From positions 37,580 through 101,579 of the IMG/VR virus record IMGVR_UViG_3300022925_002539: a DNA stretch of 64,000 nt; one strand, 5' to 3'. The notes under the pieces are model-generated. The model made no database searches and had not been told where the DNA came from. It was given only the letters and a program-made list of their open reading frames with translations. This document shows, in pieces, positions 2,982 through 7,354 of this stretch (position 1 is the first letter of the stretch; each line of letters opens with the position of its first letter). The position numbers and the translations under genes were made by a program. The stretch is from a virus.

Positions 2982-2984
2982 ATG
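2971..2984 (+). promoter_or_regulatory. late-type box placed for a leaderless start
   Basis: TAAATA at 2971-2976, then 5 nt, then ATG at 2982. In T4 late promoters the box ends at -6, so +1 would be the A of the ATG. No convincing Shine-Dalgarno sequence precedes this start. The same spacing occurs at 13074 and 29642. Confidence 0.45.
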
Positions 2985-3515
2985 CTTCCAGAATTAATAT
3001 TTTTTACAGGTGTGCCAGGCAGTCGTTGGAGTGGTATTGCACAGGAGATCAAACAAGACCCAGCTTACGATACAACAGACAGAGCGCCACATAGAGTTTA
3101 TACACACAATAAATTCTCAGGACATCGAGATGCTTATTTTGGCACAGGCATGGAGTTTGATTGTAGTTTATTTGCAAGCAACCTATATGCACCTTTTTCA
3201 GGTACAGGTACTAAATTACTAATGAGTCATGAGTGGCCATATTATTTTTCAGAAATACAATATCAATATCCAGATGCTTGGATACAACTAATATATAGAG
3301 CAGACCAACCTAGTATGGATTGGTGGTTACAAGCCGGAGGTTTTACAATTACATATCCTAACTATGAATGGTATGAAAATATAGATACTATGTGGGAAAG
3401 AATATGTGAACAAAATCAACTTATACTTGACTTTGCTCAGAAACATAAGTTACAATGGAAACAACATCATAAACACAGTGATATTTTCATTACTACATAT
3501 AAAGGTAAACCATGA
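2982..3515 (+). CDS. P-loop sulfotransferase-like protein
   Basis: This 177-aa protein begins with LIFFTGVPGSRWSGIAQEI, a phosphate-binding-loop-like segment of the kind seen at the N-terminus of sulfotransferase-family proteins (5' PAPS-binding loop). The rest is rich in aromatic residues and has no clear second motif. It overlaps the following methyltransferase start by 4 bp. If a sulfotransferase, it would sulfate a glycan or small molecule; this remains inference. Its start lacks a ribosome site and sits 5 nt after a late-type box. Confidence 0.5.
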   Translation: MLPELIFFTGVPGSRWSGIAQEIKQDPAYDTTDRAPHRVYTHNKFSGHRDAYFGTGMEFDCSLFASNLYAPFSGTGTKLLMSHEWPYYFSEIQYQYPDAWIQLIYRADQPSMDWWLQAGGFTITYPNYEWYENIDTMWERICEQNQLILDFAQKHKLQWKQHHKHSDIFITTYKGKP

Positions 3516-4195
3516 ATCATAAAATCCTTAACAAACTAGAACAGATGATACACGTATCACCTCAACTTCTACGAAATCCAAATACCATGCGTCAAGCAAT
3601 ACAGGCCACATTTAATGTAACTGTAGAAGATGTTGAGTACGAAAACATTGGACAACTAGTAGATAGAATTGATGATAAAGTGTTGGGACATTATTTTGCC
3701 AATGTTTGGCAAGGAGAAATGTCAAAATACAAATACAGTGGTCCAGCACTAATAGATGAAATAAACAAACTGAAACCAAGACATGTTCTAGATATTGGAT
3801 GTGGATACCATGAGTTCAAAGGCAAGATAGACAATATTATAGGGATTGATCCATATAATGATCGTGCTGATTTACAAATCAAACTATTAGATTACTATCC
3901 AGAAGAACGTTTTGATGCAATACTAGCACTAGGAAGTATAAATTTTGGTAGTACAGATAAAATATTTGCTGAGCTAGAACATGCAGTGAGTTTGTGCAAT
4001 CCAGGTGCAGTACTATTCTTTAGAGCAAATCCAGGACTGCCACATGATAAAACAGAATCAAACTGGATTAGTTTTTATCCCTGGGACGCCAACTTTGTAG
4101 TAAATTGTGCTAATCAACTAGGTGTAGACATATTGGATCTACGTACAGACAGTCATAAAAATCGACTGTACTTCGTTTGGAGGACAAAACAGTAA
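3512..4195 (+). CDS. SAM-dependent methyltransferase
   Basis: A 227-aa protein. Residues ~92-100 contain HVLDIGCGY, the Rossmann-fold motif I that binds S-adenosylmethionine, followed by an acidic strand end (IIGIDPY) and RFDAILALGSINF as motif II/III. The substrate is unknown. An N-terminal helical region of about 80 residues precedes the domain. The start overlaps the previous gene by 4 bp and the stop overlaps the next start (TAATG), indicating translational coupling. Confidence 0.78.
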   Translation: MNHKILNKLEQMIHVSPQLLRNPNTMRQAIQATFNVTVEDVEYENIGQLVDRIDDKVLGHYFANVWQGEMSKYKYSGPALIDEINKLKPRHVLDIGCGYHEFKGKIDNIIGIDPYNDRADLQIKLLDYYPEERFDAILALGSINFGSTDKIFAELEHAVSLCNPGAVLFFRANPGLPHDKTESNWISFYPWDANFVVNCANQLGVDILDLRTDSHKNRLYFVWRTKQ

Positions 4196-4545
4196 TGAAG
4201 TGGGAAATATTCCAAAAGAAATATACAAACGTAGGCTTATCCCCAGATGATAGACTATGGGAATATGATGCAGATGGATCACAAATTTATCAACTAAAAT
4301 GTGGATTTGGGTTAAAAACACTATGGGACGGTGGTCGTGCTTATTGGGAAAAAGATTTTGCACAAAAATGGAAAGATGCAAATGAACTATACTTTGCAGT
4401 AAAAGGACAACTTATACCTGATAGTTGGAGCCAAAAAGACGTAGATAGAATGGTTGATAATTATACCGCAAGACTTTGGGGAAACTGTGAACGTTTACCT
4501 CGTACTTCAGAAAAGTTTGAATCTGTCTGGAAAGAACATAAATAA
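4195..4545 (+). CDS. hypothetical protein, 116 aa
   Basis: The ATG at 4195 is chosen over an in-frame TTG at 4177 because GGAGG (4179-4183) lies 11 nt upstream and the ATG overlaps the preceding stop as TAATG. The product is soluble and Trp-rich (nine Trp in 116 residues), with DDRLWEYDADGSQIYQLKCG near its N-terminus. I do not recognise a family. It is the last gene before the tctA leader, and its final codons form part of a late-type promoter box. Confidence 0.65.
   Translation: MKWEIFQKKYTNVGLSPDDRLWEYDADGSQIYQLKCGFGLKTLWDGGRAYWEKDFAQKWKDANELYFAVKGQLIPDSWSQKDVDRMVDNYTARLWGNCERLPRTSEKFESVWKEHK
4538..4545 (+). promoter_or_regulatory. late-type promoter box CATAAATA for the tct operon
   Basis: CATAAATA at 4538-4545 includes the stop codon of the preceding gene. 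T4 late geometry predicts transcription starting near 4551, immediately before the first paired element (4553) of the structured tctA leader. The coincidence of predicted start and RNA structure supports both calls. Confidence 0.5.
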
Positions 4546-4550
4546 AAACA

Positions 4551-4643
4551 TACTACAACTAACGCTCGAATGTAAAGAAGTTCAGTTGTAGACTCCCGGA
4601 AATTTTTAAGGCACATTCGCATGTATGCGACTGTGGATTCTCT
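4551..4643 (+). promoter_or_regulatory. structured 5' leader of tctA with pseudoknot and competing hairpin
   Basis: About 93 nt. CTACAACT (4553-4560) pairs with AGTTGTAG (4584-4591). The loop between them carries CGAATGT (4567-4573), fully complementary to ACATTCG (4613-4619) downstream, which makes an H-type pseudoknot. The downstream strand also belongs to a competing hairpin: TCGCA-TGTA-TGCGA (4617-4630) flanked by CACA (4612-4615) and TGTG (4632-4635). That longer hairpin would tie up the weak GGA ribosome site at 4635-4637, six nt before the tctA ATG. This is the layout of a translational riboswitch or similar element; the ligand is unknown and no known class is matched with confidence. 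Confidence 0.6.
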
Positions 4644-6074
4644 ATGATTGAAATGATTACAGCTTTAATGGCTGGCGTACTATATGGATTACTAATAGGC
4701 ATAATACCTAGTGCAGGTGCTACTACAGGTTTGGTTGCACTGTTTGGTTTTATCAGTTACTTTGTTCATGAACCATATTTAGGTGTAGTATTCTTAATGG
4801 CAGTGGTTGCTGCTAGTACCACAGGCGATAGTTTTACTTCAATATTGTTAGGAATACCAGGAGCAAACAGTGCCGCTGCTACTATGGTAGATGGCTTTCC
4901 ACTTGCACAACAAGGCAGAGCAAGTTATGCAATCAGTGCCGCCGTTACCACTTCAACAGTAAATGGTTTAATTTGGGGTTGTTTAGTGTTCTTATTATTA
5001 CCTTGGTATACAAACTTATTGATGATTATTGGTGTACCTGAACTTTGGGCATTTACTGTACTTGCACTAGCAACAGTTGGATTTATAAGTACAAAATTTT
5101 GGTTCCGTAGTTTGTGTGCAATTTGTATTGGTATATTTTTAGGCATGGTAGGAGTTAACCCAGAAACAAATGAGCCACGTTTTACTGGTAGTTGGTTTTA
5201 TTTAGAAGATGGTATACAACTTATGCCAGTAGTTGCAGGACTATTTGCTATTCCAGAATTAATTAAAGGACTGTTCAATAGAACTAAGACTGCCACTATT
5301 GTAAAAAGCGAATTAACAGAAGGTGTCAAAGAATTTTGGCGTAATCGTTGGTTAGGACTACGAGGCGGTTTTATTGGTGCTTTTATAGGTTTACTGCCTG
5401 GACTAGGAGGTGCTATGGCAGATTGGATGGCATACGGAAGTGCAGTCGCTAGTAATCCAAATGAACGTTTTGGTAACGGCAATATTAAAGGTGTTATAGG
5501 ACCAGAAGGTGCTAATAATGCACAGAAAGCAACAAGTATGATTCCAACAGTTTTATTTGGTATACCAGGTGCACCGTTTGCGGCAGTTTTAATGAGTTTG
5601 TTTATGTATCTAAATTTTGAATTAGGCACACCAGATTTAGCCTACGACACAGAATTTTTTACAAGTATGACATTTGGCTTTTTAAGTGCAACAGTTATAG
5701 TTGCAATATTGTGTATATTTTTAATAAAGCCAATTAGTTATATTACCAGTGTCCCTTACAAATATTATTTTCCTATTTTACTAGCAGTAATTGTATGGAG
5801 TAGTATGCAGTATACAGGAGGCTGGGAAGATTTTGTAATGTTAGCTGTATTTTCCTGCATAGGATTTGTTTGCAGACATTACAAATTTAGTAGACCTGCT
5901 CTACTAATAGGATTTATATTATCCGAAAAAATAGAAAAACTTTCCATACAGATGTTTGCTTTGTATGACATTGAAAGTTTAATTACAAGACCGATATTTA
6001 TGGTATTAGTTATTTTTATTATAGGTATCTTTGCATATAGTTTTATAAAGAAAGGAAAAATCGATTATGCGTAA
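4644..6074 (+). CDS. tctA: TctA-family large membrane subunit of a tripartite tricarboxylate transporter
   Basis: This 476-aa, strongly hydrophobic protein has the TctA hallmarks: GLLIGIIPSAGATTG near the N-terminus, a TTGDSFTSILLGIPG segment, and an internal repeat of this (GLLPGLGGAMADWM and VLFGIPGAPFAA) in the second half, as in the two-fold TctA architecture. About ten or more membrane segments are visible. TctA forms the sodium- or proton-coupled channel for carboxylates delivered by a periplasmic TctC protein. The family is usually about 500 aa, so it appears full length. tctC overlaps its end by 8 bp. A phage copy would be an auxiliary metabolic gene. Confidence 0.93.
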   Translation: MIEMITALMAGVLYGLLIGIIPSAGATTGLVALFGFISYFVHEPYLGVVFLMAVVAASTTGDSFTSILLGIPGANSAAATMVDGFPLAQQGRASYAISAAVTTSTVNGLIWGCLVFLLLPWYTNLLMIIGVPELWAFTVLALATVGFISTKFWFRSLCAICIGIFLGMVGVNPETNEPRFTGSWFYLEDGIQLMPVVAGLFAIPELIKGLFNRTKTATIVKSELTEGVKEFWRNRWLGLRGGFIGAFIGLLPGLGGAMADWMAYGSAVASNPNERFGNGNIKGVIGPEGANNAQKATSMIPTVLFGIPGAPFAAVLMSLFMYLNFELGTPDLAYDTEFFTSMTFGFLSATVIVAILCIFLIKPISYITSVPYKYYFPILLAVIVWSSMQYTGGWEDFVMLAVFSCIGFVCRHYKFSRPALLIGFILSEKIEKLSIQMFALYDIESLITRPIFMVLVIFIIGIFAYSFIKKGKIDYA

Positions 6075-7128
6075 ATTTTTAATTGCATTATTTTTAATGC
6101 TTAGTACACCAGCACTTGCTGATTATACAATGATAGTACCACAAAAGCCAGGAGGAGGTACAAGTGTGTGGGCACAGATCGTGGCTACAGAAATGGAAAA
6201 ATATTTAGATGAAAAGATTGTTATCAAACACATTAGAGGTGCTAGAGACATTCCTGGATTCAACAAGTTTCACAATGAACTCCAAAATGATCCAAAAACA
6301 ATAATGGTATCTCATGGTGGTAATGGTGTAAGTTTCTTAAACGAAAAGGTAGATTACAACTATGCCGACTATGAAAGTGTAGGATTAATGAATCTAAATA
6401 TTATTGTTGCATCACGTAAGGATCATAATCCATACGGTGGAAAGAAAACTGCTTTTGCTGCTGGTAGTGGAATGATTCCAGAAGGCATTGCAATGACATT
6501 ACTAAAGTGTGGAGCAGGACTTACTACAGAACAATACATTGACTGTTTCAAACGTAAAGTAAACTGGGTAAAAGGTATGTCAGGTGGCGAAAGACGTTTA
6601 GCATTTAAACGTGGCGAACTAGACGGTACTAGAGAAAATCCAGCTGCTTTTAAAAAACATGTTCAACCTACTATTGAACAAGGCGTTGCAGGATTATGGT
6701 TTCACCATGGGATACTACAAGCAGATGGTTCACATGCTGATGATCCAAATTATCCAGGATATCAAATGGAGCAATTATTCTATGCAGCAAATAGAACAAA
6801 ACCAGAAGGTGATTTATATGCCGCCTATAAACTTGTAAAAAGTTTCCGTGATGGTATGCAAAAAGCACTATGGGTTGGAAAAGGAAATCCAAATAAAGCG
6901 AAACTAATCGCAGCATTAAAACAAGTTGCTACAAATCCTGAAAGTGTCAGTGCAGTAGAAAAGAAAGTTGGCAAGTATCAATGGCTAATTGGCAATGCCG
7001 GTGATGCTCATAGAGATACACTGATGAAACTTATTACACCTGAAGCATTAAGTACACTTGTGAAGTTTAATAACGAAGCATTTGGAATTAAAGCTGTGTA
7101 TAAGGATACATTACTTGCCCAAAAATAA
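6067..7128 (+). CDS. tctC: TctC-family periplasmic substrate-binding protein
   Basis: 353 aa. An N-terminal signal peptide (basic MRKF, hydrophobic core, AxA-type cleavage at ALA-DY) sends it to the periplasm. The opening of the mature protein, MIVPQKPGGGTSVWAQIVATEME, matches the Bug/TctC P[NQ]xPGGGxD-type ligand loop with GGGTS. The body is the two-lobed binding-protein type. It should present a carboxylate to TctA. The ligand cannot be read from sequence. Translationally coupled to tctA, and its end overlaps a small membrane protein gene. Confidence 0.88.
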   Translation: MRKFLIALFLMLSTPALADYTMIVPQKPGGGTSVWAQIVATEMEKYLDEKIVIKHIRGARDIPGFNKFHNELQNDPKTIMVSHGGNGVSFLNEKVDYNYADYESVGLMNLNIIVASRKDHNPYGGKKTAFAAGSGMIPEGIAMTLLKCGAGLTTEQYIDCFKRKVNWVKGMSGGERRLAFKRGELDGTRENPAAFKKHVQPTIEQGVAGLWFHHGILQADGSHADDPNYPGYQMEQLFYAANRTKPEGDLYAAYKLVKSFRDGMQKALWVGKGNPNKAKLIAALKQVATNPESVSAVEKKVGKYQWLIGNAGDAHRDTLMKLITPEALSTLVKFNNEAFGIKAVYKDTLLAQK

Positions 7129-7354
7129 TAGTGGCATCGTAGTTTACGTTAAATATGCGAGTGCAGTGGTCATACTTATTGCTATGATACTGCATGTCGC
7201 AGGCGTAACTCCATGGAATAGCATACTGCAAATGATAGGTGCTAGTGGGTGGATTTATGTTGGTTTTAAATGGAATGAACGTGCAATTATTCTTAACTTT
7301 TTACCACAGTTTGCGATAATAGTTCCTATGTTAATTTGGATGTACTTATTATGA
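7115..7354 (+). CDS. small membrane protein in the tct operon, in the position of tctB
   Basis: 79 aa from a TTG at 7115, chosen because AAGGA (7101-7105) is well spaced; an in-frame ATG at 7082 lies deeper in tctC and has no such site. Two hydrophobic segments follow (about residues 12-30 and 55-78), separated by GASGWIYVGFKWNERA. Canonical TctB has about 150 residues and four membrane helices, so this is either a reduced partner or an unrelated small protein. It overlaps tctC by 14 bp and the next gene by 4 bp. Confidence 0.65.
   Translation: MPKNNSGIVVYVKYASAVVILIAMILHVAGVTPWNSILQMIGASGWIYVGFKWNERAIILNFLPQFAIIVPMLIWMYLL

Follow-up and report, generated by a model that had tools for sequence, protein, structure and literature searches.

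A conserved small hairpin at the head of the tct mRNA of marine phages looks like an undescribed gene-control element

From the comparison of its leaders, the tct mRNA of marine phages looks as if it begins with a conserved small hairpin (P1) that would be an undescribed gene-control element. The explanation towards which the evidence leans is a conserved cis-acting leader RNA in which P1 is the recognition part and is followed by an exchangeable output module. The P1 motif is small, recurs in diverse phages and is joined to three kinds of output module. If this reading is true, phages that import a whole substrate importer also bring the RNA control for it, which has rarely been documented.

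The window and its tct operon

The window (the whole stretch of 64,000 nucleotides that was analysed, to which all coordinates refer) comes from a virus record of 101,579 bases. The DNA polymerase of its phage matches the phage family phrog_262, and the nearest named phages for this protein are the very large phages Phosso (Sinorhizobium phage, 51.1%) and Atu_ph07 (Agrobacterium phage, 47.7%). On the plus strand, tctA (4644..6074; PF01970 TctA, E 1.1e-96), encoding the membrane subunit of a tripartite tricarboxylate transporter, is followed by a gene for a probable TctC/Bug-type solute-binding protein (6067..7128) and by a gene for a small DUF6552 protein in the TctB position (7082..7354; PF20189, E 1.1e-11), which would be the TctB. 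Among PDB sequences, BugD (E 0.0082) and a TctC (E 0.022) were matched weakly by residues 19-129 of the 6067..7128 product, and a Pfam search with this product returned no match. With these two genes following tctA, the locus is a tripartite-transporter operon. PMC4164917 describes the role of viral tctA as unknown. A short ORF (4177-4545) lies directly before the leader, with tctA on the other side.

A 177-residue protein encoded at 2982-3515 accompanies methyltransferase and tct genes across phages. It has no match in Pfam or PHROGs, and contains FTGVPGSRWSG, which we take to resemble a P-loop or sulfotransferase motif. A pattern search of one-per-species bacterial genomes found relatives of the phage TctA at 3 loci (33-59% identity), a scarcity which suggests that the phage TctA is a phage-specific branch.

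Collection of leaders and distribution of P1

Relatives were collected using TctA searches of a viral collection, a DNA pattern of the P1 core, and searches with the neighbouring 177-residue protein. In one set of 286 tctA upstream regions (121 distinct), 30 passed the first P1 finder; among them, the L275 and L233 groups were chance or coding matches, and L297 and L300 were set aside for their deviant interior. A stricter core scan of all loci gave 38 distinct hairpins, from which 7 minus-strand, coding or chance matches were dropped; the 31 retained leaders, together with 4 that vary in the core flanks or linker, make up the 35 leaders tabulated (including L145 and L147, which differ only just outside P1). 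Coding matches (L057, L060, L286) and AAC..GTTC hairpins with a different interior (L297/L298) were omitted from the alignments, and L373, in which the core is absent, was dropped (E 0.16 and 0.72 in two model searches). The first covariance model (R1) missed L003, L007, L013 and L027, which the core scan found later; over 49 records this model reported 5 with E up to 0.5, only one of them below 0.03, and a record in which it has no match may still carry P1.

A DNA-pattern scan of 2.9 million viral contigs, in which neither a hairpin nor a gene was demanded, returned 57 stretches. P1 is formed by 14 of these and all 14 precede tctA (in L121, L124, L126, L135 and L137 the downstream tctA was seen among the TctA-search loci; the L088 contig stops shortly after the gene start, and its sequence reads like L123). 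Of the remaining stretches, without P1, the majority come from a single repetitive coding sequence or are matches standing alone. When whole phage records, some of about 300 kb, were searched with the covariance model, one strong match (E <=2.9e-7) was obtained in 22 of 24; both records without a match belong to a core-less clade described below, and only two extra weak matches (E 0.126 and 0.604) occurred over the 24 records.

The TctA proteins encoded behind P1 include groups 43-48% identical to the window protein as well as proteins 65-100% identical to it. In two TctA subfamilies that are about 45% identical, P1 immediately precedes either tctA or a short operon that includes it. In L359, L360, L362-L364, L368 and L022, and also in L003, L007/L011, L013 and L027 (the leader alone being read in L027), P1 stands before the gene of the 177-residue protein, which precedes tctA in the operon. 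Since P1 lies either before tctA or before this gene, it marks the start of the tct transcription unit and not tctA itself. Its distribution is confined to leaders of one metabolic theme, those of the tct operon, as would be expected of a riboswitch; many tctA loci have no detectable P1. A host origin was considered and rejected: in bacterial genomes P1 was not found except in L340, one of the 3 loci of the TctA search, on a contig of a Pelagibacter MAG that is perhaps viral. A model scan of 297 genomes of the order of this MAG gave no match, even in the genome known to hold one, and so carries no weight; the exact-core pattern gave 10 matches in 397 genomes, with a stem in L340 alone and none in the other 9.

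Other arrangements were seen upstream of tctA. A common GCGAGTGCAA stretch occurs in possible hairpins within the 135 nt before tctA, without P1, in L293, L294, L296 and L308, and is possibly another leader element. L034 and L304 carry a different 5' hairpin after a TAAATA box, then a CATG...CATG segment; they are another leader family.

Structure and covariation of the P1 hairpin

In the window, P1 (4553..4591, plus strand) is the sole match of the covariance model (58 bits, E 6.1e-13). Its outer helix P1a is formed by CTACAACT (4553-4560) and AGTTGTAG (4584-4591), inside which AAC (4561-4563) is paired with GUU (4580-4582), leaving a bulged C (4583). An internal loop (GC 4564-4565 / A 4579) separates these pairs from P1b (UC 4566-4567 / GA 4577-4578) and a variable loop (4568-4576). 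P1 is followed on the same strand by a linker (4592..4607), consisting of a short C run (CCC 4595-4597) and then an A/U-rich stretch; CCC is present at most 16 nt 3' of P1 in 21 of the 35 leaders. The general form of the hairpin is a P1a of 6-9 bp with free sequence, an AAC-GC / A-GUU-C core, a P1b of 2-4 bp, and a loop whose length varies across leaders.

Counted over the 35 leaders, P1a pairs 1 to 6 are present in 35, 35, 34, 35, 34 and 35 of them respectively, with 2-5 standard pair types at each. In the alignment of 30 sequences, 89.6% of the cells pair, 94 double-changed cells are observed (29.9 +/- 4.3 in shuffles), and the covariation score is 0.609, against 0.174 in shuffles and at most 0.112 in slid controls. 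P1b also co-changes: UC/GA becomes CU/AG, and AGAC/GUCU or UGAC/GUCA is found in L007/L027 and L013. The internal-loop strand reads GC in 25 of 35 leaders and GG in 7, with the opposite A retained in 32. AAC and GUUC are invariant across the alignments, an invariance that is partly built in, AAC and GTTC having been required by the P1 finders. In the clade L019, L020, L023 and L038, the P1 core is lost or replaced; since the rest of the leader (linker, AAGG and a second hairpin, P2) is kept there, the core is dispensable in this clade, which constitutes a natural core-loss control.

The folding energy of the leader is unexceptional (z -0.80 for 4546-4660, -1.40 for 4550-4643); chance is therefore not excludable from the window alone, and comparison decides. 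The first-pass annotation had proposed a first stem at the position of P1a, and among leaders P1 is kept by compensatory changes. The same annotation had named uncompensated one-sided changes as the observation that would speak against its helices; compensatory changes were found instead in both P1 and P2. P1 is thus a conserved, covarying structure of the kind that a riboswitch possesses, with a putative aptamer status.

Promoter box and transcript start

A late-type promoter box, ATAAATA, lies at 4538..4544 on the plus strand, inside CATAAATAA. Such a box just before the first stem was part of the initial proposal and was recovered, with the leader RNA expected to begin behind it. On the model of T4 late promoters, the RNA would be expected to start near the base of P1 in the window. 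Of the 19 plus-strand MTAAATA boxes of the window, 9 are found 110 nt or less upstream of an ORF start (2.25 expected), although such boxes are depleted overall (32 vs 69 expected); those just upstream of ORF starts are likely to be late promoters of this phage. Further MTAAATA boxes of the window are located at 2970, 8742, 19966, 26246, 28608, 29641, 35614 and 36579. Among the 34 leaders with enough upstream sequence, 27 carry a TAA(A/G)TA box (-14 to -28 relative to the P1 core); part of this conservation may be coding, since the preceding gene often has its stop codon overlapping the box. The other 7 are the six terminator leaders described below and L340.

The P2 hairpin and the ribosome site

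The proposed Shine-Dalgarno sequence of tctA is AAGG (4608..4611, plus strand), which lies 32 nt before the start codon in sequence. It is separated from the start codon by the P2 hairpin (4612..4635) and by the 8-nt spacer GATTCTCT (4636..4643), both on the same strand. In A3, a set of 20 P2 leaders aligned from AAGG at one end to the start codon at the other, AAGG lies directly 5' of P2 in all 20; the helix shows 38 double-changed cells (12.6 +/- 3.1 in shuffles) and a covariation score of 0.501 (0.205 in shuffles). In minimum-energy folds of 19 leaders, P2 begins right after AAGG and ends 8 nt before the start codon in 13, the hairpins with this 0/8-nt geometry being 18-25 nt long. The exceptions are L098 (7 nt to the start), L089 (1 and 9 nt), and L143, L144, L147 and L148, in which a shorter minimum-energy P2 gives a spacing of 4 and 11 nt and the 0 and 8 nt are reached with two outer pairs added by hand past an internal loop. 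The distance from AAGG to AUG is 26-33 nt by sequence and 7-10 nt in the fold for most leaders.

A canonical Shine-Dalgarno sequence is present at 42 of the 73 ORF starts of the window and is missing at the tctA start, the only one of the 73 with the AAGG/hairpin/AUG layout. As this layout was met at 21 of 2000 random positions, its single occurrence in the window is not significant, and it is conservation that carries the argument for a split site. The tctA leader thus combines a distant Shine-Dalgarno sequence with a hairpin that would restore the spacing, as in the split ribosome sites of T4.

The first-pass annotation had read the second hairpin (4612-4635) as one that hides a GGA ribosome site. 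The hairpin itself is present and covaries, whereas 10 of the 20 A3 leaders lack GGA and all 20 have the invariant AAGG; a lock on GGA was therefore rejected as a general rule. Because the invariant AAGG adjoins the 5' side of P2, the AUG lies 8 nt 3' of it, and the length of the hairpin varies, P2 most likely does not hide the ribosome site, and would aid translation rather than block it. In L031 and L032, where AAGG is missing, a start codon at the usual position of P2, about 20 nt before tctA, opens a 4-codon ORF (ATGGGGAAATTATAATG) whose stop overlaps the tctA start.

Output modules and terminators

The 35 leaders were classed by reading their sequences into 18 with a split ribosome site, 6 with a terminator, 6 with a plain Shine-Dalgarno sequence or purine-rich start, and 5 others (L031, L086, L262, L080, L340). 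In two lineages (e.g. L364, L288), an intrinsic terminator separates P1 from the first gene, which is the arrangement of a transcription attenuator; no such terminator was found in the window leader itself. Long terminators are present in 6 of the 7 leaders without a late box and in none of the 27 with one, a correlation that is suggestive and not a count of independent events, since the terminators come from two lineages only. Among these 27 leaders, a loose terminator test was satisfied only by short stems, 7-9 pairs long, at the place of P2. In L364, 16 nt separate the end of the terminator stem (1829) from the start codon of the first gene (1846), and the terminator probably lies in the operon's own leader; there being no evident promoter room in this interval, it would have to be read through. 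An antiterminator was sought in L364, L368 and L288, where truncated RNAs fold P1 alone.

Alternative folds and rival explanations

The first-pass annotation had proposed a translational riboswitch resembling SAM-II/SAM-V, in which a pseudoknot between the P1 loop and the 5' strand of P2 alternates with a P2 that hides the start site. The complementarity on which it was built, CGAATGT (4567-4573) with ACATTCG (4613-4619), is exact in the window. The conserved helix was not recovered: 7 of 7 pairs form in the window alone, against 1-4 of 7 in the 18 other leaders of A2, and the loop sequence GAATGT recurs in L025, L049, L058 and L098 without a pairing partner. The pseudoknot, kept in no relative, was rejected. 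The order of AAGG, variable hairpin, 8 nt and start codon points away from a two-state switch and suits the assembly of a ribosome site, so this riboswitch is very improbable. An alternative helix between P1 and the ribosome site, also considered, failed in two conservation tests. Pairing between the P1 core and the start region in 35 leaders had a median p of 0.42 (3' strand) and 0.50 (5' strand), with p <0.05 in 14% and 9% of leaders respectively, and is overall no stronger than in shuffles. A helix between the 3' tail of P1 and the start region stands out in L172 alone, where 0 of 300 shuffles did as well and where ACAAUCC is complementary to GGAUUGU, which spans the Shine-Dalgarno sequence; such pairing is borderline in the window and in L114 and absent in most other leaders. 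A conserved mutually exclusive fold between P1 and the output module was not found, and control may be exerted through a bound protein or ligand acting on the ribosome or polymerase, or through another fold. Of the riboswitch-like idea, what persists is a structured and conserved leader, the pseudoknot and the two-state lock having been given up; it survives because the output module behind P1 differs between phages and is in some of them a terminator.

What P1 would recognise, or be recognised by, can be weighed from its form and position. Tentatively, it may be the aptamer of an undescribed riboswitch class in marine T4-type (jumbo) phages, one that would adjust expression of their carboxylate importer to the amount of the imported substrate or a related metabolite, in terminator and split-site versions. 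An invariant internal-loop and bulge core on a variable helix is typical of protein-binding RNA sites, and P1, with its short invariant core, internal loop, bulge and freely varying helix, has this appearance. A phage or host RNA-binding protein that recognises the core and represses or activates the operon is thus possible, if somewhat doubtful; T4-type phages use such operators upstream of a gene, e.g. those of gp32 and gp43 (PMC3014915), but there is no candidate protein here and the element is present only before the tct operon. P1 could also be a stability or processing hairpin at the 5' end of a late mRNA, with P2 as a translation aid and nothing sensed. This is unlikely: P1 does lie at the expected 5' end in most leaders and the geometry of P2 is constructive, but stability does not need an invariant internal core, a record has only a single hairpin of this kind, that of the tct operon, and P1 is kept where the late box seems not to be the start and a terminator follows.

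The terminators that lie right after P1 in two lineages, and the folding of P1 before the terminator with no competing fold in truncated RNAs, are what would be expected if P1 modified the elongating polymerase to pass terminators, as put or nut sites do; the 5' core ACGCUC also resembles boxA (CGCUCUU). This explanation is quite unlikely, given that a long terminator is absent from the 27 of 34 leaders that have a late box, and that the CUC part, unlike a linear boxA, varies together with the strand it pairs with (UC/GA to CU/AG) or gives way to other sequences (AACGG, AACUU, AACGCAGAC).

The leader RNA with a recognition part and an exchangeable output module remains the preferred reading. 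Comparison of the leaders establishes P1, its core, its operon, P2 with its geometry, and the terminators. That one conserved hairpin is combined with interchangeable terminator or ribosome-site modules, and always stands before this one transporter operon, suggests a sensor acting in cis. P1, placed right at the 5' terminus of the RNA, would act as the recognition part, its variable helix presenting the AAC-GC / A-GUU-C internal loop and the bulge to a small molecule or protein. We infer that P1 is bound by something and that this binding alters expression of the operon. In the window module, P2 would fold away 24 nt, so bringing AAGG to 8 nt from the AUG for translation of tctA; other phages would instead have, as the module, an intrinsic terminator for transcription attenuation or else a Shine-Dalgarno sequence of the plain kind. 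Naming the partner of P1 would reveal what the phage transporter carries.

Comparison with known systems

SAM-II and SAM-V riboswitches use H-type pseudoknots, which is why they had been proposed at the outset; unlike them, the P1 leader has no pseudoknot conserved in its homologues and no Rfam match. The first-pass annotation had claimed no class match, and the Rfam scan agrees. At gathering thresholds the window gave one tRNA and nothing else, the leader at E up to 10 gave one chance match, L114 and L007 gave no match, and sub-threshold matches of L364 (e.g. PyrR, 20.9 bits vs 54 required) were rejected; no covariance model of SAM-II, SAM-V or another Rfam class thus matches the leader. No description of the P1 leader was found among the listed open-access papers on tctA, phage riboswitches and phage RNA motifs. 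It can be described as a leader RNA of a phage metabolic gene whose conserved core is new.

Several phage leaders resemble it in part. The T4 gene 32 and 43 operators also place a 5' RNA structure before an A/U-rich stretch and a ribosome site (PMC3014915), but serve autogenous control by replication proteins, whereas the P1 leader has no conserved pseudoknot and no known protein. The manA, wcaG and PhotoRC-II RNAs, putative cis-regulators from T4-like cyanophages and marine metagenomes, are likewise structured leaders of metabolic genes in marine T4-type phages (PMC2864571); the P1 element differs in having no Rfam model match and in preceding other genes. Glutamine riboswitches occur in marine myophages such as Melnitz and Mosig, so that riboswitch-type control exists in T4-like phages whose hosts are streamlined marine bacteria (PMC9004378); the P1 leader has another structure and gene, and no Rfam riboswitch match. 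The T4 genes 38 and 25 come closest to the P2 module in layout: in these genes of a T4-type phage, the Shine-Dalgarno sequence is likewise too far from the AUG, a hairpin cuts the distance from 22 to 5 nt and from 27 to 11 nt respectively, and translation falls when the hairpin is destabilised (PMC3014915). In the tct leaders, known from sequence, the change would be from 26-33 to about 8 nt, a conserved P1 precedes, and the gene is that of a transporter. The P2 leaders would thus be a conserved case, outside the T-even phages, of ribosome sites assembled by a hairpin.
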